This document shows, piece by piece, positions 2,839 to 23,396 of a stretch of DNA of 23,396 bases. The DNA lies in IMG/VR virus record IMGVR_UViG_3300025701_000911, positions 1 to 23,396 of that record. One strand, written 5' to 3'. This DNA is from a virus. Both the position numbers and the translations under genes were made by a program. Under the pieces are notes generated by a model. The model was not told the DNA's origin. It did not search any database and saw only the letters and a list, made by a program, of their open reading frames with translations. Position 1 is the first letter of the stretch. Every line of letters begins with the position of its first letter.

Positions 2839-4950
2839 ATGGCAATAATATATTCATACCCTCAAGGTTCTTCAGCTCTACAAAATGATAGGGTGGTTAT
2901 AACTAGAATAGATGAAGAGGAAAACGAAATAACTACAAAACAACTAACTATAGGTCAAATAGCTGACTATACGTTAGCGAGACAAAAGAACGATTTTTTA
3001 ACTGGGTTAAGCTTTAATACAGGTGACGGTATATTAACAGCTACTGTTCAAAATCAATCGGATGTAACTGTTGACTTGAATGGTAGATACGCTTTAGCTT
3101 CAGAGCTTACTGAAGAATCCGAAATTAGAAGTGCTAATGACGAAACTTTACAAGATAACATTGATGCCTTAACTTTACAGAGTATAAACGCTGATATATT
3201 ACTTCAAGATAATATAGACGCAGAAGCGTTAACGAGAAGTAATGCTGACGGTGCGTTACAAGACAACATTGATGCTGAAACGTTAGCAAGAACAAACGCG
3301 GATAATACGTTACAAGATAATATAGACGCAGAAGAAACTGCACGTATTGCAGGTGATAATGCTTTGCAACAACAAATCAACGGAGTAGGTGGTGACCTTT
3401 CTAACTATCAACTACGCTCTGAAAAAGGGCAAGCAGATGGATACGCATCGTTAGATTCTAATGGAACAGTCCCTGTTTCTCAACTACCTGAATCAGTAAC
3501 AGGGGCACTTGAATTTCAAGGTGTTTGGGATGCTTCTACCAATACACCAACTTTACCTGACCCAACGACTGTTAAGGGACATTATTACAAAGTAAGCGTA
3601 GAGGGAACTTATTTAGGTGTTTTGTATCACGTAGGTGATTGGGTTTTGAGTGATGGAGTATCTTGGGAACATATACATACTCAAGAAACTGTAAGTGATG
3701 TATTTGGAAGAGAGGGAAGCATTACTGCAGTTGAGTCAGACTACTCAGCTTTTTATCCTTTGATTCAAGATTTAACAGATGAAACAAATGCACGTGTTAC
3801 AGGTGATGCAGGTTTACAGAATCAGATAGACGCGATACCAAATCCAAACGATGCTACAATAACATTAACTGCAGGAGATGGGTTAACAGGTGGAGGTGAT
3901 TTCACTACAGACCAAGCAGGTAACGAGACAATTACTTTAAGTCACGCAGGTGGGGGAATTGCAACAACATTTCCTAATATTACATTAAATTACGGTGATA
4001 CGTTTAAGGTTGGGTCAATTAATGAGGTAAATGGTTTTGATAATTTTGGTCATTTAAGAAACATACAACAAATTAATTTCACGCTTCCTGACGCGCCAAC
4101 TCTTGCGAGCTTAGGATATACAGGAGATACAAACGCTAACTATATTACCAATAACAACCAATTAATAAACGGGGCAGGTTACACTACCAATATTGGAGAT
4201 ATTACAGAAGTAATTGCAGGAGATGGAATGACAGGTGGAGGTGATTCAGGAAGTGTTACTATTTCACTTGGTAATGTATTGTCTAATAATCCTGATGGAA
4301 ATATTCAGTTTTCAGTACTCACTCCCGAAGATTTTAATTTAGAGGCTAACTTATCACCTGTTTTACAAGTTGTAGGTATTGAATACAGTCTAAGTAAGGC
4401 TCAGGCGATTGGCGATTACTCAGGTCAATTGAAGTTTTCAAATATAACAGGTGTTTACGATTTTTCGAGTAATGATGTAGGGCAGTTATCTATTTATAAT
4501 AATAACGACACTTTAATAAGGGCTTTACCTGACCAATACGGATTACTTAATGAAGCAATTACTGTAAAAAAAATCAATAGTTATGTAGGGATAGGAGTTA
4601 ATGATCCTGAATACAACTTAGATGTTAATGGAACTATTAGAGCACAGGGAGATATAATTGCTTTTTCTGATGCAAGAGTAAAGGAAAATGTAAAAACAAT
4701 ACCTAACGCTTTAGAAAAGGTTTCTAAACTAAGAGGTGTTGAGTACAATAGAATTGGGGAAAGCGAAAAATCAATTGGAGTTATCGCTCAGGAAGTGGAA
4801 AAAATTATACCTGAAGTTGTTAAAACAGACGTAGAAGGTATGAAATCGGTGGCTTATGGTAACATAGTAGGTTTATTAATTGAATCAATTAATGAGCAAC
4901 AAAAACAAATAGACGAACTTAAATCAAAAATAGATGGCATTACCAACTAG
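2839..4950 (+). CDS. Tail fibre with C-terminal S74 self-cleaving chaperone domain
   Basis: A 703-residue fibre. Residues 1-45 (SYPQGSSALQND...ITTKQLTIGQIADYT) resemble the start of the 746-2059 fibre. Residues 104-178 are 18-residue repeats beginning LQDNIDAE, likely a trimeric coiled coil. A globular fibre region follows from about 223 (GALEFQGVWDAS) to VSDVFGREGSITAVESDYS. Gly-rich AGDGLTGGGDFT-type beta repeats come next. The C-terminal 94 residues form the intramolecular chaperone of endosialidase (peptidase S74): SDARVKENV carries Ser610 and Lys615, matching the Ser-Lys autoprotease dyad, with IGVIAQEVEKIIPEVV downstream and a final coiled coil (INEQQKQIDELKSKI). In known members this domain assembles the trimer and then cleaves itself off before the catalytic Ser. 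Its 3' end overlaps the next gene by 17 nt. Confidence 0.93.
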   Translation: MAIIYSYPQGSSALQNDRVVITRIDEEENEITTKQLTIGQIADYTLARQKNDFLTGLSFNTGDGILTATVQNQSDVTVDLNGRYALASELTEESEIRSANDETLQDNIDALTLQSINADILLQDNIDAEALTRSNADGALQDNIDAETLARTNADNTLQDNIDAEETARIAGDNALQQQINGVGGDLSNYQLRSEKGQADGYASLDSNGTVPVSQLPESVTGALEFQGVWDASTNTPTLPDPTTVKGHYYKVSVEGTYLGVLYHVGDWVLSDGVSWEHIHTQETVSDVFGREGSITAVESDYSAFYPLIQDLTDETNARVTGDAGLQNQIDAIPNPNDATITLTAGDGLTGGGDFTTDQAGNETITLSHAGGGIATTFPNITLNYGDTFKVGSINEVNGFDNFGHLRNIQQINFTLPDAPTLASLGYTGDTNANYITNNNQLINGAGYTTNIGDITEVIAGDGMTGGGDSGSVTISLGNVLSNNPDGNIQFSVLTPEDFNLEANLSPVLQVVGIEYSLSKAQAIGDYSGQLKFSNITGVYDFSSNDVGQLSIYNNNDTLIRALPDQYGLLNEAITVKKINSYVGIGVNDPEYNLDVNGTIRAQGDIIAFSDARVKENVKTIPNALEKVSKLRGVEYNRIGESEKSIGVIAQEVEKIIPEVVKTDVEGMKSVAYGNIVGLLIESINEQQKQIDELKSKIDGITN
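3148..3378 (+). repeat. 54-nt in-frame tandem repeat in the fibre gene
   Basis: Four full units start at 3148, 3202, 3256 and 3310, each encoding LQDNIDA plus 11 residues (18 aa), followed by a partial fifth (LQQQI) at 3364. A related isolated copy (LQNQIDA) lies near 3814. Units differ at the DNA level mainly in third positions, so the array is old rather than freshly expanded. The heptad-like spacing of hydrophobic residues suggests a fibre coiled coil whose length could change by recombination. Confidence 0.8.
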
Positions 4951-6120: not shown

Positions 6121-7677
6121 ATGTCAGACAAGATTGTTAAAAATCTAAACTTTGGTGATGATGCCAAGGTTAAGATATTTAAAGGTATAGATAAATTAAC
6201 AAAGGCTGTTAGCTCTACGTTAGGAGCTAGCGGTCAATGTGTGATCCTAGAAGATGGTAACGGTAAACCAGTTATAACCAAAGATGGTGTAACAGTTGCT
6301 GATTCAATAACACTTCTAGATCCTGTTGAAAATATGGGTGCCACGCTTTTAAAAGAAGCTGCTAGAAAAACTGTAAAAGAAGCTGGAGACGGAACAACAA
6401 CAGCTACAGTACTAGCTCACTCTATTTTAAACAAAGCTTATGAAGTATCTAAAAACAATAGCATTAGAATTATTAAAAATGGTATTGATTCAGGTGTTGA
6501 TAAAGTAATAGAATATTTAGAAAGCAAAAGTATAGAAGTTAGCGGTGATATGTTAATGGATATAGCTACTATCAGTTGTAACAACGATAGAGAATTAGGG
6601 GAGATAATAGGTGACGCTTTTAAAGCTGCCGGCGATAATGGGGTTGTAGTAATGGAACCTACAGACACTGAAGAAACAAGTTTTGAATTAGTTGATGGTG
6701 TCCAATATGAAAAAGGTATTACAAATTCTCATTTCGTTACTAGCAAAGAAAAAAGAGTTGCTGAGTTAGAAAACCCTTTAGTATTGTTAATAGAATCACC
6801 AGTTGAATCTATAAGGCAAATACAATCAGTATTAGAGTACGTAATATCTAACAACAAGTCATTGTTGATTATAGGTGATTTAGATCCTAAGATTACATCA
6901 ACTTTAGCTATGAATAAAGTTAAAGGTAATATTAAGGTAAATGTTATCGATGCTCCTACTTACGGAGTTAATAAAAAAGATATGTTATCTGATTTATCTG
7001 TTTTAACTAACGCTACAGTGATAAATGAAGACTTAGGTGATGATCTAGATATTATAAGTCCAAACTTACTAGGTCAATGTAAAAAGAGTATCACAAGTGA
7101 TTATGAAACCATATTACAAGTAGATACTGAATCTGAAGAAGTCTTAGAGCTAATAAAAGAAGTTAAGGCTCAAATGGAAGAAGCTAAAGCTCCTGGTGAT
7201 GTAATAAGATTAGAAAAGAGATTATCAAGACTATCAGGTAAAGTAGCTATAGTTAAAGTAGGTGCAAACTCTGAAATAGAGTTAAAAGAAAAGTCTGATA
7301 GAGTTGAAGACGCTATATGTGCAACTAAAGCAGCTATAAAAGAAGGTATTGTATCTGGTGGTGGAATTGCGTTATTAGACGCGTCGCTAAAAACTAAACC
7401 TAGTAACGTAGGTGAAGAGATATTGCTAGAAGCTATTTTAGCGCCATTTAAGAAGATATTATCAAACGCAGGTGTTGATGTAAAGGTTTCTGAAAAAGAA
7501 GGCGTAGGATTTGATGTTATAACCGGAGAGATGGTTAATATGATTGAGAAAGGTATTATAGATCCTTTATTGGTTACGAAAAGCGCTTTAAAAAATGCTG
7601 CATCAGTTGCTACAACTATATTATCTACAGACTGTGTAATTAATAACTTAAGAGTTGGTGATGAAAGCAGTAGGTAA
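6121..7677 (+). CDS. groEL: GroEL-type group I chaperonin (phage-encoded)
   Basis: A 518-residue Cpn60 homologue covering equatorial, intermediate and apical domains. ATP-site residues are present: TKDGVTVA (Asp55, equivalent of E. coli Asp52), AGDGTTTAT (Asp90, equivalent of Asp87), and RVEDA (Asp397, equivalent of the catalytic Asp398) in [25 protein letters not shown] form. It should therefore hydrolyse ATP and fold proteins in a ring. It is shorter than E. coli GroEL (548): a segment between the intermediate and C-terminal equatorial parts is shortened, and the Gly-Gly-Met tail is missing (it ends [14 protein letters not shown]). In the apical helix that contacts substrate and GroES, hand alignment places Gln235 where E. 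coli has Leu234, while Leu238 matches Leu237. It overlaps the downstream groES by 17 nt. It probably folds capsid or fibre proteins. Confidence 0.97.
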
Positions 7678-7924
7678 TAATATACTAATCGAAAAGATTA
7701 AAGAAGAGGCTATATCAAAAACTAAAGGTGGTTTATTACTAACAAGTAGTCAAAAGCAAGATGTTAGGTATAAGCAAGCTACAGTTGTAAACTGTGGTGA
7801 TTTAGTCAAAGGCGTTAAGAGTGGTGATTCTATTTACTATGATATGCACGCAGGTCATAGAATAGAAATTGACAAGCAGGTTTTTTACGTGATTACACTT
7901 AGAGATGTTGTTGTTGTTTTATGA
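7661..7924 (+). CDS. groES: GroES-type co-chaperonin (phage-encoded)
   Basis: An 87-residue Cpn10 homologue from ATG 7661. An in-frame TTG two codons upstream is possible, but [15 protein letters not shown] fits the family start. The mobile loop (about 17-33) carries GGLLLT in place of the E. coli GGIVLT that docks on GroEL. VKSGDSIYY (52-60) matches VKVGDIVIF, and IEIDKQVFYVITLRDVVVVL matches the last strands of the barrel. The roof loop is short (YDMHAGHR). The start lies inside the groEL 3' end (17-nt overlap), and the stop overlaps the next ATG by 4 nt (ATGA). The gene order groEL-groES is the reverse of the usual bacterial operon. It should cap the phage GroEL; whether it also works with host GroEL cannot be told. 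Confidence 0.93.
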   Translation: MKAVGNNILIEKIKEEAISKTKGGLLLTSSQKQDVRYKQATVVNCGDLVKGVKSGDSIYYDMHAGHRIEIDKQVFYVITLRDVVVVL

Positions 7925-14530: not shown

Positions 14531-16951
14531 ATGATTTATAAAAGTGTAAATAGTTCTTTCCCAAGTCAGGTTGTACCTGATGTAGAAAAGCAGAGTTATG
14601 ATTATGGTTACGAAGTAGGTAGAGCTATAGAAAACGAATGGTTCAGTGGTGATAGAGGCGCTGGAGCAGGTGGCAGATTTGGTAATAACTGGCAAAACTT
14701 TCATAGGTTACGTTTATATGCAAGAGGAGAGCAATCTGTTCAAAAGTACAAAGATGAATTATCTGTTAACGGTGATTTGTCTTATTTAAATTTAGACTGG
14801 CAACCAGTTGCTGTTTTATCTAAATTTGTGGATATTGTTGTTAACGGTATGGTTGATAAGGGTTATGAGATTAAATCTTACGCTACAGATCCTTACGCTT
14901 TAGAACAAAGAACGAAATACGCTGAAGGTTTAGCTGAAGACGCTTTCGCTAGTGATTTAATGGCTCAAGCTAAAGAGGTTACTGGTAAAGAATTTAAGAG
15001 AACAAGCTTTTCTGATGCTGAACTTCCAAAGAATCCAGAAGAGTTAGAGTTGCACATGCAATTGAATTATAAGCAAGCTGTTGAGATAGCTGAGGAAGAA
15101 GTAATAAATAACGTATTAGACTTTAACAAATATCCAGAAATAAAAAAGAGAGTTGCTCAAGATTTAACTGTATTAGGTATTGGAGCTGTTAAAACAGATT
15201 TTAATTTATCTGAAGGCGTAACTGTTAAATATGTTGACCCTGCTAACTTGGTATATTCTTATACAGAAGATCCAAACTTTGAAGACATATATTATGTTGG
15301 CGAAGTAAAAAGTGTTTCTTTGCAAGAGCTTAAAAAACAGTTCTCTGATTTAACTGATGAGGATTTAAAAGAAATAGAAAAAACATCACCAGTATCTAGT
15401 TACACTAGACAATATAATGGTCAAGATAATAACTATGATAACGTTCAGGTTTTATACTTTGAATACAAAACATATTCCAACCAAGTATTTAAAATAAAGA
15501 AAACAGATCAAGGTTTAGAAAAAGCTCTAGAAAAACCAGATACTTTTAATCCACCGAAAAACGACAACTTTGAAACAGTCTCTAGATCTATAGAAGTTTT
15601 ATACAGTGGAGCAAAGATATTAGGTCAAGATAAAATGCTTAGATGGGAGTTAGCTGAAAATATGACTAGACCTTATAGCGATCAAACTAGAGTAGATATG
15701 AATTACTCTATATCTGCGCCTAGAATGTATAAAGGTCGTATAGATAGTTTAGTTAGTAAGTGTATTGGTTTCGCTGATATGATTCAGATAACACACTTAA
15801 AGATACAACAAGTTTTATCTAAGATGGTTCCAGATGGAGTATTTGTAGATGTTGATGGTTTAGCTGAGGTTGACTTAGGTAACGGAACATCATATAATGC
15901 TCAAGAAGCTTTAAATATGTATTTCCAAACTGGTAGTATAGTTGGTAGATCTTTAACTCAAGACGGAGACTTGAACCACGGAAAAGTTCCAATACAAGAA
16001 CTACATTCTTCTTCTGGTATAAGTAAAATACAAGCGTTAATACAGACTTATCAATACTACTTGCAAATGATAAGAGATGTTACAGGTTTAAACGAAGCAA
16101 GAGATGGTAGTATGCCATCTAAAGACTCTCTAGTAGGTTTGCAAAAACTAGCAGCGGCAAACTCTAACGTTGCTACAAAACACATATTACAGTCTTTAAT
16201 GTACATAACTGTTAGAACATGTGAGAATATAAGTCTAAGGGTTGCTGATATGTTAAACTTCCCTTTAACTAAAAATGCTCTTATGAACGCTATTAGTTTT
16301 TCTAATGCTAATACTTTAGAGCAGATGAAGTTTTTAAACATGCACGAGTTTGGTATATTTTTAGAACTAGAACCTGAAGAGGAAGACAAACAATCTTTAG
16401 AGCAAAACATACAGATAGCACTTCAAAGTGGTGGTATAGATTTAGATGACGCTATAGATTTGAGAAACATATCTAATCTTAAATTAGCTAATCAACTATT
16501 GAAGCAGAAAAAGAAAAGAAAACAAAAAGAAGCACAACAGGCTCAACAAGCAAATATACAGGCTCAAGCTCAAGCAAATGCTGAGAATGCTGAAAAAGCT
16601 GCTTTAGCAGAACTTCAAAAACAACAAGCCTTAGCTCAAACAGAGTTACAAATAGAGCAAGGTAAATCTCAGTTCAAGATACAACAAATGCAACAAGAAG
16701 CTGAGATTAAAAAACAACTTATGGCTGAAGAGTTTAATTATCAAATGCAGCTAGCTAAAATAAAAGCTGAGGCTGAGAAAAATAAGCTGGATAGTATTGA
16801 AGATAGAAAAGACGAAAGAACAAAAATACAAGCCACTCAGCAGTCAGAGTTGATAAACCAAAGACAAACTGACTCTTTACCAAAGAATTTTGAATCATCA
16901 GGTAATGATGTTCTAGGTAGTTTTGGTTTAGGGTCTTTTGAGCCAAGATAA
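14531..16951 (+). CDS. Portal protein
   Basis: An 806-residue protein directly after terL. The start (SYDYGYEVGRAIENEWF) and the wing region (NFHRLRLYARGEQSVQKYKDEL, YLNLDWQPVAVLSKFVDIVVNGMVD) have the look of Bacteroidota-phage portals, which ring the capsid vertex as a dodecamer. The central stem-like part includes MYKGRIDSLVSKCIGFADMIQ and RDVTGLNEARDGS with the downstream helix KDSLVGLQKLAAANSN. Residues about 655-775 are a long Gln/Ala/Lys/Glu-rich coiled coil (QAQANAENAEKAALAELQKQQ), probably the extended barrel reaching into the capsid. The tail ends SFGLGSFEPR. The assignment rests on position, size and these segments; no alignment was run. Confidence 0.88.
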   Translation: MIYKSVNSSFPSQVVPDVEKQSYDYGYEVGRAIENEWFSGDRGAGAGGRFGNNWQNFHRLRLYARGEQSVQKYKDELSVNGDLSYLNLDWQPVAVLSKFVDIVVNGMVDKGYEIKSYATDPYALEQRTKYAEGLAEDAFASDLMAQAKEVTGKEFKRTSFSDAELPKNPEELELHMQLNYKQAVEIAEEEVINNVLDFNKYPEIKKRVAQDLTVLGIGAVKTDFNLSEGVTVKYVDPANLVYSYTEDPNFEDIYYVGEVKSVSLQELKKQFSDLTDEDLKEIEKTSPVSSYTRQYNGQDNNYDNVQVLYFEYKTYSNQVFKIKKTDQGLEKALEKPDTFNPPKNDNFETVSRSIEVLYSGAKILGQDKMLRWELAENMTRPYSDQTRVDMNYSISAPRMYKGRIDSLVSKCIGFADMIQITHLKIQQVLSKMVPDGVFVDVDGLAEVDLGNGTSYNAQEALNMYFQTGSIVGRSLTQDGDLNHGKVPIQELHSSSGISKIQALIQTYQYYLQMIRDVTGLNEARDGSMPSKDSLVGLQKLAAANSNVATKHILQSLMYITVRTCENISLRVADMLNFPLTKNALMNAISFSNANTLEQMKFLNMHEFGIFLELEPEEEDKQSLEQNIQIALQSGGIDLDDAIDLRNISNLKLANQLLKQKKKRKQKEAQQAQQANIQAQAQANAENAEKAALAELQKQQALAQTELQIEQGKSQFKIQQMQQEAEIKKQLMAEEFNYQMQLAKIKAEAEKNKLDSIEDRKDERTKIQATQQSELINQRQTDSLPKNFESSGNDVLGSFGLGSFEPR

Positions 16952-18145: not shown

Positions 18146-19597
18146 ATGGCTTTAAGTCCTGCTTTCGGTTCAATTAAACCGAGTCAAAAACAACAAATTT
18201 TAGAATCTAACTTCTTATCATTTAACGGTGGTTCAGGAGCTGGAGATTCAAACACATTCGCACAACAGTATTTACCAGAGATCTACGAACAAGAAGTAGA
18301 GCGTTATGGAAACAGAACTTTATCTGGATTCTTACGTATGGTTGGTGCTGAGATGCCAATGACTTCTGATCAAGTAATTTGGTCTGAACAAAACAGATTA
18401 CACGTTGCTTACAACGATGTAGCTAACGACGGAACTAACACTTTAACTTTTACGGTTGGTGGTTCTGGAGATGCATTTGTAGAAAACGTAATTTCTAAAA
18501 ACCAAACTGTTGTGATCTTAGATCCAGCTGGTCTAGAATTAAAAGCTTTAGTAACTGAATCTTCTCAGACTGGTTCTACTGCTACTATCGAGGTTGCTCC
18601 TTATACTGCTGCTAACACTGGTGCTTTAGCTGCTACAGGATTAAAAATCTTTGTGTACGGTTCTGAATATGGAAAAGGATCTAGCATTGCTAACTCTACT
18701 GGAGCTACTGATGTAAACGGTTACAAATCTATCACTCCTTCTTTTACTCAACACTCTAACTCTCCTATCATTATCAGAAATAAATATGTAGTTTCTGGAT
18801 CTGATATGGCTCAGATTGGATGGGTTGAAGTAGCTACTGAAGATGGTGCTTCTGGATATTTATGGTATTTAAAAGCTGAGTCTGAAACTAGATTACGTTT
18901 TGAAGACTACTTGGAAATGTCTGTAGTTGAAGGTGAAAAAGCTGCTGCTTCTTCTGGAGCTGAAGCTGCTGGAGTAAAAGGTACTCAAGGTTTATTTGCT
19001 GCTATCAAAGATAGAGGTAATGTAAATGTTGGTTTTACTGCTGCAACTGGATTAGCTGCTTTTGATGAGATCTTGAAAAACTTAGATACTCAAGGAGCTA
19101 TTGAAGAGAACATGTTATTCTTAAACAGACAAACTGCTTTAGATTTTGATGACATGCTATCTGACATCTCTTCTGGAAACAACGGAGGTACTGCTTATGG
19201 ATTATTTGAAAATTCAGAAGATATGGCATTAAACTTAGGATTCTCAGGATTCAGAAGAGGTTCTTACGACTTCTACAAGACTGACTGGAAATACTTAAAC
19301 GACGCATCTACTCGTGGAGCAATTCAAGGAGCTGTTGCAAGTGTTGAAGGTGTATTAATTCCTGCTGGAACTTCTACAGTTTATGACCAAATCTTAGGAA
19401 CTAACATCAGACGTCCTTTCTTACACGTAAGATATAGAGCTTCTCAAGCTGATGATAGAAGAATGAAAACTTGGTTAACTGGTTCTGCTGGTGGAGCTTT
19501 CACTTCTGACTTAGATGCAATGGAAGTAAACTTCTTATCTGAAAGATGTTTATGTGTACAAGGTGCTAACAACTTTGTATTATTCCAAGGAGTATAA
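18146..19597 (+). CDS. Major capsid protein (probably HK97 fold)
   Basis: A 483-residue protein following the scaffold candidate. The start (SIKPSQKQQILESNFLSFNGG...TFAQQYLPEIYEQEVERYGNRTLSGFLRMVGAEMP) and the end (RPFLHVRYRASQADDRRMKTWLTGSAGGAF...MEVNFLSERCLCVQGANNFVLFQG) are as expected for a capsid subunit. Codon use is visibly more biased than in the neighbours (TCT, GCT, ACT, GGA, and C-ending AAC/TAC/TTC), which suits the most abundant virion protein. A hairpin follows the stop by 14 nt. It is the likeliest client of the phage chaperonin by analogy with T4 gp23 and gp31. The HK97 fold is inferred from family knowledge, not visible directly. Confidence 0.88.
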   Translation: MALSPAFGSIKPSQKQQILESNFLSFNGGSGAGDSNTFAQQYLPEIYEQEVERYGNRTLSGFLRMVGAEMPMTSDQVIWSEQNRLHVAYNDVANDGTNTLTFTVGGSGDAFVENVISKNQTVVILDPAGLELKALVTESSQTGSTATIEVAPYTAANTGALAATGLKIFVYGSEYGKGSSIANSTGATDVNGYKSITPSFTQHSNSPIIIRNKYVVSGSDMAQIGWVEVATEDGASGYLWYLKAESETRLRFEDYLEMSVVEGEKAAASSGAEAAGVKGTQGLFAAIKDRGNVNVGFTAATGLAAFDEILKNLDTQGAIEENMLFLNRQTALDFDDMLSDISSGNNGGTAYGLFENSEDMALNLGFSGFRRGSYDFYKTDWKYLNDASTRGAIQGAVASVEGVLIPAGTSTVYDQILGTNIRRPFLHVRYRASQADDRRMKTWLTGSAGGAFTSDLDAMEVNFLSERCLCVQGANNFVLFQGV

Positions 19598-19675: not shown

Positions 19676-20503
19676 ATGGCTAAACAAGCTACAGCAAAAA
19701 AAGCTGAGGTTGCTCCTCAGAAACCAACTGTTCAAGAAAACAAAACAGTTCAAAAACAACAAGTGAAACCATCTTGGGAAATAAAAGATAGAACATATAT
19801 TTTAACTAGAGGCATTAGCCCATTAACATATACAATACCATCTAGACATACATCAAAGCATGCTTTATTGTATTTTGATAAAGAGTCTGGTGAACAAAAA
19901 GAAATTAGATATGCGACTAACCAGTCATCTCCATTTAAAAAAGAACAAGAAGGAGAAGCTACATTAGGTCACATAATTTTTAGCAATGGTACATTAATGG
20001 TACCTAAAGAAAAACAAAACTTACAAAAGTTATTATCTCTATATCATCCACTAAAAAACAGAATATACGCAGAGTTTAGTCCTGTTGAAGTTGCTGAAGA
20101 TGAATTAGATATATTAGACTTACAAATAGATGCTATGACAGCGGCAAGATCGATAGATATAGACCACGCTGAAGCAATAATGAGAGTAGAACACGGTTCC
20201 TCAGTTAATTCTATGAGCTCTAAGGAGATTAAAAGAGATTTATTATTATTCGCTAGGAATAATCCTAGTATGTTCTTAGAGTTAGCGAATGATGAAAATG
20301 TACAATTAAGAAACTTTGCTGTTAAAGCGGCTGAAGCTGGAATAATTAAACTATCTCAAGATCAAAGAACTTTTTCATGGGGATCAAATGGTAGAAAATT
20401 AATGAATGTACCTTTTGATGAAAACCCTTACTCTGCATTTGCAGCCTTCTTAAAAACAGATGAAGGTGTTGAAATTTATAGATCTATAGAGAAAAATTTA
20501 TAA
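19676..20503 (+). CDS. Conserved capsid-adjacent virion protein, unknown role
   Basis: A 275-residue protein. Residues 1-35 are a low-complexity Ala/Lys/Gln linker (KQATAKKAEVAPQKPTVQ). About 35-125 form a beta-rich domain (SWEIKDRTYILTRGISPLTYTIPSRH...HALLYFD...GHIIFSNGTLMVPKEKQNLQKLLSLYHPLKN). The C-terminal half is helical, with ARSIDIDHAEAIMRVEHG, KRDLLLFARNNPSMFLELAND and a winged-helix-like ending (AAEAGIIKLSQDQRTFSWGSNGR). The short upstream ATG frame (19554) overlaps the MCP and is not used. Flanking hairpins on both sides suggest separately controlled expression. A head-vertex or head-fibre role is possible from position; no family was named with confidence. Confidence 0.68.
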   Translation: MAKQATAKKAEVAPQKPTVQENKTVQKQQVKPSWEIKDRTYILTRGISPLTYTIPSRHTSKHALLYFDKESGEQKEIRYATNQSSPFKKEQEGEATLGHIIFSNGTLMVPKEKQNLQKLLSLYHPLKNRIYAEFSPVEVAEDELDILDLQIDAMTAARSIDIDHAEAIMRVEHGSSVNSMSSKEIKRDLLLFARNNPSMFLELANDENVQLRNFAVKAAEAGIIKLSQDQRTFSWGSNGRKLMNVPFDENPYSAFAAFLKTDEGVEIYRSIEKNL

Positions 20504-20521
20504 AAACAAGTAATATTAATT

Positions 20522-20552
20522 ATAGCTGGTGGCAAAAATTGTTACCGGCTAT
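20522..20552 (+). terminator. Strong hairpin followed by TTTT
   Basis: ATAGCTGGTGGCAA (20522-20535) pairs with TTGTTACCGGCTAT (20539-20552) over 14 positions (three G-T wobbles) around an AAA loop, and TTT continues to 20555. It lies 19 nt after the preceding stop and 16 nt before the next ATG, so it is a good candidate intrinsic terminator or transcript-attenuating stem. It also argues against the in-frame GTG at 20529, which lies inside the stem, as a start. Confidence 0.7.
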
Positions 20553-20567
20553 TTTAAAAACAAAAAA

Positions 20568-21257
20568 ATGGCAATTAACATAGACTCAGTCTACAAGAGC
20601 GTTCTAGTTATCCTAGAGCAGGAAAAAAGAGGTGTTTTAACACCTACTGAATTTAACAAGATAGCTGCTCAGGCACAGCAAGAAATTTTTACTCAGTACT
20701 TTGACGAGTTGAATCAATTGTTAAGAATGGCACAAACTTCTTTAGCTTATGCTGATAGAATGGCTTTGTTAGATGAAAAAATATCTTTATTTAAAAGAGA
20801 GGAATCCATAGCTTTAACAAGTGGTAAAGCAACACTACCTACTCAGGTTCAAGAGCTTGGGTCTGTTGTTTACAAAAACAGAGAGGTTCAAAGAATACAA
20901 AAACACGAGCTATATACAACCAATCAATCACCACTGACTGCTCCAACAGAGTATTATCCAGTGTATATATACGAGAACAAAGTAGTGACTATATATCCAA
21001 CTACAGTTACAGGAGATATTGATGTAAATTATCTTAAGTACCCTAGCGATCCTAAGTGGGGTTTTACTATAGATCCAAATCTAGGCAACTATGTGTACAA
21101 TAGTATAAGTTCTGTTGATTTCGAGTTACACCAATCAGATCAACCATTATTGATAGACAAGGTGTTAGGTTATGCGGGTGTTATGACTAAAGATCAATTA
21201 TCTTTATCTATAGCTTCGCAAAAAGAACAACAAATTAACGCTGACGGGCAAAAATAA
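20568..21257 (+). CDS. Connector/ring-like protein, family A copy 1
   Basis: A 229-residue protein from ATG 20568 (MAINIDSVYKSVL). A GTG 13 codons upstream is in frame but lies in a hairpin, and the paralogue at 21864 begins MAINVDTVYKTVL, which fixes this start. Features: EQEKRGVLTPTEFNKIAAQAQQEIFTQYFDELNQ in the N-terminal helices, YADRMALLDEKISLF, then a beta domain (YYPVYIYENKVVTIYPTTVTGDIDVNYLKYP...WGF) and C-terminal ELHQSDQPLLIDKVLGYAGV. The helix-rich start followed by a small beta domain fits head-tail connector or tail-ring proteins of podovirus-like or crAss-like phages. Assignment rests on position after the capsid genes and on its paralogue. Confidence 0.72.
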   Translation: MAINIDSVYKSVLVILEQEKRGVLTPTEFNKIAAQAQQEIFTQYFDELNQLLRMAQTSLAYADRMALLDEKISLFKREESIALTSGKATLPTQVQELGSVVYKNREVQRIQKHELYTTNQSPLTAPTEYYPVYIYENKVVTIYPTTVTGDIDVNYLKYPSDPKWGFTIDPNLGNYVYNSISSVDFELHQSDQPLLIDKVLGYAGVMTKDQLSLSIASQKEQQINADGQK

Positions 21258-21263
21258 TAAAAA

Positions 21264-21845
21264 ATGGCAGATACAAGTATAACAAACGCTTTTATATCTC
21301 TAAATGATATAATAAATAACTTTATAATTTCATACACTGGACCTGGTAAATTGATACCTGATTCTAAAAGAACCGAAGTTGTATTTCACGCTAGAAGATC
21401 TCTCCAAGAGTTTTCTTATGAAACATTGAAAGGTCAATTTTTAATAGAAGAGCCTACAGCTACATCTCCATATCCTTTACCAAAAGATTACGTAGCTATG
21501 GTAACAGTGCAAGCTAATAACGTAGAATTTACTGAGTCATCTGTAAATCCTCCTGCTCCAGAAGAATATTTTATTGATTATGCAAATAAGCAAATCATAT
21601 TAAACGGTGGTAATGTTGGTGACAATTGGTTTAAAGTTAAGTACTTATCAAACGCTTTGACTACGGATGAATCAGCAGCTATTCCTAAGTTAGCAGAAGA
21701 GGCTTTATACTCTTGTATTGTTTATGCGATACTTGCTAATAGAGAAAAAACAAACCCAGGTTTACTACAAAGACTATTAATAGAAAAGACAGATAAATTA
21801 GAAAAAGCAAAATCAAGACTAGTTTTCACTAATTTTTCTTCTTAA
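21264..21845 (+). CDS. Connector/ring-like protein, family B copy 1
   Basis: A 193-residue protein. The N-terminus has SLNDIINNFIISYTGPGKLIP and VVFHARRSLQEFSYETL, then a short beta segment with PLPKDYVAMVTV, and a C-terminal helical part (KLAEEALYSCIVYAILANREKTNPGLLQRLLIEKTDKLEKAKSRL). The N-terminal helices are clearly shared with the last gene of the window (LNDIVNNFIVAY.GDGKLI, IVFHAKRAVQELSYDTF, IPQDYVNYV). It starts 6 nt after family A copy 1. The 'helices, Pro-Lys-Asp-Tyr-Val turn, beta, helices' layout fits a head-completion or tail adaptor ring, by inference from position. Confidence 0.7.
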   Translation: MADTSITNAFISLNDIINNFIISYTGPGKLIPDSKRTEVVFHARRSLQEFSYETLKGQFLIEEPTATSPYPLPKDYVAMVTVQANNVEFTESSVNPPAPEEYFIDYANKQIILNGGNVGDNWFKVKYLSNALTTDESAAIPKLAEEALYSCIVYAILANREKTNPGLLQRLLIEKTDKLEKAKSRLVFTNFSS

Positions 21846-21863
21846 TAAAAAACAAGGAAAATT

Positions 21864-22625
21864 ATGGCTATAAATGTCGATACTGTATATAAGACGGTTT
21901 TATTAATATTAAACAAAGAACAGCGTGGTTATATGACACCTGATGAGTTCAATAAAGTAGCTACTCAGGTTCAATTAGATATATTTGAGCGTTATTTTGA
22001 TGATCTAAACCAGCAAATTAAAGTTGGTCAAACAAGTAGAGAGTACGCTGACAGAGTTTTAGATGTTGATGAGAAGATAGCTGTTTTCAAGGTTAGAGGT
22101 GATTGCGATTATTTAGGTGATGGGGTTTTTAAACTACCTGTTTCTTATAATGGAGTCTCTACAAATGGAACAGCTGTTTACAAGTTAGGTGTTGTAACTT
22201 ACAATGATCCTGATATAGGAGATAGTGTTGAGGTAGAAAGGTTAACCTCTAAACAGTTTTACGAAAACCAAAGATCAGATTTAACTAGATCTTCTAGAAA
22301 CTTCCCTACTTATGTTTACGAAAACGAGACTAATACAAATAGAAAAACAATAAAAGTTAGTCCTTCAACTATAACAAATAATGTAGTCGCTGATTTTATT
22401 AGAAAACCTAAAAATGTTGTTTGGGGTTACAGTGTTGGTAGCCTTGGTCAATATGTATATGATGGTGACGCTGATGTTTCTACACAGATAGAGCTACATC
22501 CATCAGAGCAAGTTAATGTTATTTTAAAAATACTTTTATATTCTGGTATAATAGTTAGAGATCCTCAAATAATTCAAGCGGCGGCTTCTGAAGTACAGAA
22601 AAACGAAATAAACCAAAAAAGCTAG
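21864..22625 (+). CDS. Connector/ring-like protein, family A copy 2
   Basis: A 253-residue paralogue of the 20568 gene: MAINVDTVYKTVLLILNKEQRG, MTPDEFNKVATQVQLDIFERYFDDLNQQ, YADRVLDVDEKIAVF, FPTYVYENE...IKVSPSTITNNVVADFIRKPKNVVWGYSV and QIELHPSEQVNVILKILLYSGI align along the whole length. It is longer in the middle (about residues 75-110: DYLGDGVFKLPVSYNGVST). It starts after AAAAAACAAGGAAAATT-ATG; the AAGGA there is a rare Shine-Dalgarno-like stretch in this window. Two differing copies suggest stacked, non-identical rings. Confidence 0.72.
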   Translation: MAINVDTVYKTVLLILNKEQRGYMTPDEFNKVATQVQLDIFERYFDDLNQQIKVGQTSREYADRVLDVDEKIAVFKVRGDCDYLGDGVFKLPVSYNGVSTNGTAVYKLGVVTYNDPDIGDSVEVERLTSKQFYENQRSDLTRSSRNFPTYVYENETNTNRKTIKVSPSTITNNVVADFIRKPKNVVWGYSVGSLGQYVYDGDADVSTQIELHPSEQVNVILKILLYSGIIVRDPQIIQAAASEVQKNEINQKS

Positions 22626-22628
22626 TAA

Positions 22629-23396
22629 ATGTCATTAATAAAAGAAAATAACAGACAGTATTACGAAGGTGCTCAAAGTTTCAGGGGAGACGGATCTTTA
22701 ACTTCCTTTAAAACAACTTTCAATACTGATATAAAATGGTACAGCTCTGACCCAAACAGTGCTAAATACGCTAATAACAACTTTAAGTTATACACTAGCA
22801 CTACTGGTTTACCAGGAGACTGGACTGAAGTAGTTTCAGGTTATTCCGTTAGCGATAACACTATAGTCTTTGACATTGCTCCAGCTTTAAACTCTTTTAT
22901 AGTAGTACAGCTAAAAACTAAGAACGGAGGCAACTACGGATCTAACTTCAACGATAGAGCTTTTGGCCGTGCAGTCGAAGACAACTACGGCTCTTATTCT
23001 TTTGTAAAATTAAATGACATAGTAAATAATTTTATAGTAGCATACGTAGGCGATGGTAAACTTATAACAAGTGTTAATAGGACGGATATAGTATTCCATG
23101 CTAAAAGAGCTGTTCAAGAACTTAGTTACGACACTTTCAATAGCGTAAAGTCTCAAGAATTAACTATACCAAATAGCTTAAGTGTTGTTATACCTCAAGA
23201 CTACGTTAACTACGTTAACATATATTGGGTTGATAATCAAGGCGTTAAGCACATAATAATGCCAACGAAACTAACTAGCAATCCTAGCGAAACACCTCTA
23301 CAAGATGGGTCAGGCGTACCTATACAAGATCAAGACGGCAACAATATAGAGACTAAATCTATAACAGAGGAAAGATGGAAGGAAAATGATTTAAAA
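22629..23396 (+). CDS. Connector/ring-like protein, family B copy 2, with extra N-terminal domain (partial)
   Basis: The frame opens at ATG 22629 and stays open to the last base (256 codons), so the 3' end lies outside the window. Residues 1-128 are a beta-rich domain absent from copy 1: NRQYYEGAQSFRGDGSLTSF, WYSSDPNSAKYANNN, GLPGDWTEVVSGYSVSDNTIVFDIAPA, NFNDRAFGRAVEDNYGS. From about 130 it matches family B: SFVKLNDIVNNFIVAYVGDGKLI, DIVFHAKRAVQELSYDTF and VVIPQDYVNYVNIYWVD. It then continues into MPTKLTSNPSETPLQDGSG and TEERWKEND. It starts 3 nt after family A copy 2. C-ending codons (AAC, GAC, TAC, GGC) are more frequent than in its neighbours. Confidence 0.75.
   Translation, partial: MSLIKENNRQYYEGAQSFRGDGSLTSFKTTFNTDIKWYSSDPNSAKYANNNFKLYTSTTGLPGDWTEVVSGYSVSDNTIVFDIAPALNSFIVVQLKTKNGGNYGSNFNDRAFGRAVEDNYGSYSFVKLNDIVNNFIVAYVGDGKLITSVNRTDIVFHAKRAVQELSYDTFNSVKSQELTIPNSLSVVIPQDYVNYVNIYWVDNQGVKHIIMPTKLTSNPSETPLQDGSGVPIQDQDGNNIETKSITEERWKENDLK

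Follow-up and report, generated by a model that had tools for sequence, protein, structure and literature searches.

The right end of the window, by which we mean the complete 23,396-nucleotide IMG/VR virus record IMGVR_UViG_3300025701_000911, carries two pairs of ring-type genes in the alternating order A-B-A'-B'. Judged from sequence comparison, the first pair (A and B, hereafter cassette 1) is an optional module that is gained, lost and moved between phages, and it has been transferred horizontally at least once. We propose that A, B, A' and B' would encode subunits of stacked head-tail adaptor rings lying between portal and muzzle. Each sampled phage would keep one native ring pair, A' and B', to which some phages, that of the window included, add the accessory A and B, placed between a conserved hairpin and A'. 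This additional pair most likely had a single origin by duplication of a native pair followed by divergence, and would since have been lost, regained and passed among related phages by recombination at a fixed site. It is likely to add two ring types, giving a longer barrel or an altered inner volume, while the native A' and B' would retain the muzzle and portal contacts in a division of labour. Taken as a whole, we regard this explanation as probable; the homology of the genes, their fold class and position, the patchy occurrence of cassette 1, purifying selection and at least one horizontal transfer are established. Fold, position and crassvirus precedent suggest that two extra ring layers are built and that the barrel is longer. 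To our knowledge, no virion of this phage group has been imaged.

Four ring-type genes between capsid and muzzle

The gene order at the right end of the window is terminase, portal, a gene without assignment, a capsid-type gene, the gene at 19676-20503 and then A, B, A' and B', with the contig end falling within B' (Table 1). The product of the capsid-type gene is presumed to be capsid by its position, as in crAss001 gp31-gp32-gp33. Spacers of 6, 18 and 3 nt separate the four ring-type genes, and the accessory pair is apparently co-transcribed with the native pair; a 64-nt spacer containing the hairpin precedes A, and this hairpin is kept in relatives both with and without cassette 1. The coordinates given for the four genes in an earlier note on this DNA proved correct: A begins at the ATG at 20568, the conserved start being MAIN..., and a longer GTG frame begins at 20529. 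For B', 256 residues can be read in the window, and the B' of a close relative (L004) is 402 aa long. The A-B-A'-B' order recurs in independent contigs (L003, L004, L088 and many more), which rules out an assembly artefact as its source.

Table 1. Coordinates of the ring-type genes and their left-hand context in the window
Feature	Position	Strand	Evidence or remark
Portal protein gene (context)	14531..16951	+	PHROG 6547 portal, E 1e-145; Pfam P22_portal
Putative major capsid/virion structural protein gene (context)	18146..19597	+	PHROG 13704 (virion structural protein), E 8e-95
Conserved gene immediately 5' of the first ring gene	19676..20503	+	PHROG 34748; left neighbour of cassette 1 in 85/85 contigs
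Strong hairpin in the spacer ahead of A; bounds the insertion site on its left side	20522..20552	+	RNA fold z -4.55
A, predicted cassette-1 ring/adaptor protein, 229 aa	20568..21257	+	Pfam SU10_adaptor 30.1 bits (cut-off 27); PHROG 14543; AF2 pLDDT 84
B, predicted cassette-1 ring/adaptor protein, 193 aa	21264..21845	+	PHROG 13977; AF2 pLDDT 76; Foldseek top match crAss001 ring protein 1
A', predicted native-cassette ring/adaptor protein, 253 aa	21864..22625	+	PHROG 14543; 38% identity to full-length A
B', predicted native-cassette ring protein, cut by the contig end	22629..23396	+	PHROG 13977; B homology in the C-terminal part

A and A' are full-length paralogues, as the earlier note had held (38% identity over 247 columns, E 7e-56, 73 standard deviations above shuffles). 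The same note had credited B and B' with a short shared core motif; they are indeed paralogous (45% over 78 aa in the window, E 2e-20, 26 standard deviations above shuffles), and their homology in fact spans nearly all of B, residues 9-83 and 116-186 of which match B' in intact relatives. By this comparison B is homologous nearly throughout to the C-terminal part of B', which has an extra N-terminal region of ~115 aa (window 22629-22980; L004:6760-7110). That region has no Pfam match and, judged by length, is present in type-2 B' proteins and absent from B1, B3 and B4 (numbered by cassette type); a decoration or fibre-docking domain is possible. Cassette-1 B is itself enlarged to ~290-300 aa, against 193, at L263:6697-7602 and L273:6701-7579. 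A against B, A against B' and the other cross-pairs scored no better than shuffles, and kinship between A and B is thus undetectable by sequence.

Window A lies above the cut-off of the Pfam SU10_adaptor family (PF24175), window B and window A' themselves lie below it, and matches at E<=0.05 were obtained for 13/37 A-family rows and 23/27 B rows (best 9.4e-08). In the AlphaFold2 models of both A and B (pTM 0.55 for B), helices at the N-terminus precede a beta-sandwich, and two further helices lie at the C-terminus. The structure that A matches best is crAss001 ring protein 3, gp35 (7qoj_D; Z 13.4 with 186 aligned, rmsd 4.3; Foldseek E 6.7e-8); the top Foldseek match of B is ring protein 1 of the same phage, gp43 (7qog_B; E 2.3e-7; Z 10.2). 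The models also match SU10, GP4, N4-like and T7 adaptors, and the significant hits are almost all phage adaptors or ring proteins. The comparison with crAss-like rings and podovirus adaptors that the earlier note had suggested places A and B among ring/adaptor folds, with TM-scores to solved rings of ~0.5. Neither a profile search of the PDB nor hhalign against single crAss001 sequences linked the A and B profiles to a crAss001 ring, so homology to those rings rests on fold and position. In phage phi38:1 the gene 3' of B carries crAss_MUZ_C (67.9 bits); the gene 3' of B' in L004 is homologous to it, and the window contig stops before that gene. The relatives locate these genes between the capsid genes and a muzzle-type gene, and their initial description as connector or ring genes is supported. 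On the strength of fold, gene order and the muzzle-type next gene we interpret A and B as two kinds of tail-barrel ring. With the fold modelled for A and B, all four products are predicted to be tail-barrel rings between portal and muzzle, native A' being ring-3/4-like through the fold of A and native B' ring-1-like through that of B.

Elsewhere the window encodes a chaperonin pair, Cpn60 at 6121-7677 (E 9e-56) followed by an overlapping Cpn10 at 7655-7924 (E 2e-11); in the phi38:1 and elemo records a GroES gene adjoins the terminase in the stretch shown. A long tail-fibre-like protein (2839-4950) ends in a C-terminal Peptidase_S74 self-cleaving chaperone domain, and a Fib_succ_major domain protein (2059-2805, E 9e-12) lies beside the tail-fibre-like genes.

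An optional cassette at one site

We compared 262 distinct contigs containing the region, comprising scans of viral contigs, four annotated phage records and the window; the contigs are metagenomic and were chosen by similarity, and the counts are not prevalences. A single cassette is found in 177 (85 of type 2, 80 of type 3 and 12 of type 4, isolates included). Cassette 1 occurs in the other 85, always adjoining the same upstream gene. The native pair follows it in 69, the remaining 16 contigs stopping before that point. Among these 69 tandem contigs the native cassette is type 2 in 58 and type 3 in nine, and in two the later A-family frame is closest by BLAST to A1, the cassette-1 form (in one, L135, the frame is broken). 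Cassette 1 alone was found in none of the 69 contigs that run on, and three cassettes in none of the 262. We also considered that cassette 1 might be hidden elsewhere in single-cassette genomes; no second copy was found in 16 such contigs of 34-63 kb.

Near-sister phages with and without cassette 1 differ by a clean insertion of ~1.29 kb, bounded by the hairpin spacer on one side and the start of A' on the other. L070, which has the cassette, and L052, which lacks it, share 91% DNA identity up to the spacer, then L070 has the extra ~1.29 kb, and identity resumes at 81% from 14 nt before A'. Filled and empty sites were compared by local alignment; global DNA alignments misplaced the gap (L070/L052, window/L005) and were left out. 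Insertion through recombination inside the conserved 5' end of A/A' was not seen, the borders falling in spacers. L104 and L030 are another close pair differing by one ring cassette.

All cassette-1 A genes fall into a single tight clade (support 100) on a long stem, and the native A' of tandem phages is interspersed among its counterparts from single-cassette phages. On the capsid-gene tree, built from three upstream genes, cassette 1 switches between presence and absence 16 times, and at least 11 of these changes are forced by well-supported branches. AU tests reject the cassette tree against the core tree and vice versa (p below 1e-5 in each direction). Individual genomes display the same conflict in both directions. 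Core proteins of L089 and the window are 54% identical, against 83% for A and 84% for B, and DNA identity steps up at window position 20546 and down at 21846, exactly at A + B; L096 and L113 are 98% alike in the core and just 72-77% alike in A and B. Among tandem genomes, distances for A and B correlate with each other (r 0.74) more closely than either does with the core (r 0.45-0.62), and the corresponding values against the core are 0.84-0.86 for native B' and 0.56-0.70 for native A'. Both accessory genes are under purifying selection (dN/dS 0.13 for A and 0.17 for B). As a separate observation, L103 and L121 share 97% of core and 96% of B' identity, and only 58% in A'; from this comparison, native A' is also exchanged on its own.

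Origin and role of the accessory pair

The earlier note had explained the alternating order by tandem duplication of a two-gene block in this lineage, inherited vertically and now giving two ring layers. Part of that claim stands: the order does alternate, A and A' and B and B' are each of common descent, and A1 and A2 group together against types 3 and 4 (support 100/97), as do B1 and B2 (96/87), which is what block copying in an ancestor of the type-2 phages would be expected to leave. Recent copying in place does not stand. A and A' are no closer within a genome than between genomes, with no recent gene conversion in most genomes (conversion holding A and A' alike was rejected for the 5' ends). 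Cassette-1 genes form one clade, common to 85 contigs and to distant backbones, native A' follows the single-cassette genes, and both the patchy presence and the tree conflict speak against vertical inheritance. A recent local event is largely refuted, and an ancient vertical duplication followed by losses only is refuted by transfers of the L089 type; we consider the lineage-specific version very improbable. As to separate entry of A and A', which the earlier note had named as the outcome that would count against it, the gene trees go part of the way for present-day genomes and not for the ultimate origin. Cassette 1 might instead have diverged in some phage lineage outside our sample before being recombined in beside a native pair, a reading that we think unlikely. 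It would suit the long cassette-1 stem, the mobility of the cassette and AU tests that do not firmly reject other placements (A1 with A3, p 0.07-0.13; B alternatives, p 0.2-0.4); alternative branchings are disfavoured, mostly without rejection. Against it are the groupings of A1 with A2 and of B1 with B2, and the fact that no phage with cassette 1 alone was found among the 85 contigs, 16 of which stop before the native pair. In a quick B tree B1 falls within B2 on a very long stem; a careful restricted tree keeps this nesting with weak support, and a B2 clade without B1 could not be rejected (p 0.42). The native A of L268 (L268:7334-8026) is sister to A1 at 99/98, but its A1-like states are confined to residues 51-96; it may be a hybrid or a conversion tract between cassettes, and we did not rely on it as evidence of a link from A1 to A2. 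Overall, the best fit is an old duplication with later loss and horizontal transfer: on these trees cassette 1 probably originated by duplication and owes its distribution today to loss and transfer.

A different question is whether the extra pair lengthens the barrel at all, as it might instead supply alternative or mixed rings, or serve a collar or fibre-docking role. In crAss001 the fibre hubs are docked on rings 1 and 2 (PMC10172136), and the extra N-terminal domain of B', without a Pfam match, also speaks for such a role. The native pair, on the other hand, is always retained beside cassette 1 and all four genes are under purifying selection, and we rate replacement or choice as rather doubtful.

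Relation to known rings and implications for the tail barrel

The closest structural precedent is crAss001 (Crassvirales), whose rings R1-R4 are gp43, gp40, gp35 and gp34 (PMC10172136; PDB 7qog, 7qoj) and whose gene order is the capsid gene, gp34 and gp35 (R4/5 and R3) and, further on, gp43 (R1) and gp44 (the muzzle) (PMC10172136). Fold class, capsid-to-muzzle position and the possession of several paralogous ring genes are shared with the present system. In crAss001 R3 and R4 are recent paralogues and the R4/5 and R3 genes are adjacent, with those of R2 and R1 scattered among others; here, by contrast, the unit consists of two neighbouring genes, each for a different type of ring, and is present twice or, in close relatives, once. 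Cassette 1 also moves horizontally, and no sequence-level match to the crAss001 rings was found. The nearest annotated isolates belong to Pervagoviridae and Elemovirus. Callevirus phi38:1 (Pervagoviridae), the Flavobacterium elemo phages and Maribacter phage Panino share the arrangement terminase, portal, further genes, capsid, upstream gene, A, B and a large gene, which in phi38:1 is the muzzle gene; their PHROG 14543 and 13977 genes are annotated as virion structural proteins, and unlike the window they have one A-B pair only. The Pfam score of A and the fold matches also connect these proteins with the SU10 adaptor family and with adaptors of the T7 gp11 and P22 gp4 type.

Other podoviruses had been seen with a single ring of this kind, built from one protein (PMC10172136), and ring-gene number differs between crassvirus clades, implying different tail length (PMC10136315). 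Variation of ring number by paralogy is already known in crassviruses; a ring cassette of two genes that is exchanged among near relatives seems to be new, our limited literature search having found no report of one. It is conceivable, and we suggest it tentatively, that barrel length is a modular, exchanged trait: a two-gene cassette would move in and out at one site, near-identical phages would differ by two ring layers, and an accessory pair touching only rings would suit distant backbones. Natural close pairs that differ by one cassette (L070/L052 and L104/L030) would make the question of what determines tail length in multi-ring podoviruses directly testable. Ring number, known to differ between crassvirus families, may also differ between near relatives by recombination of a module.
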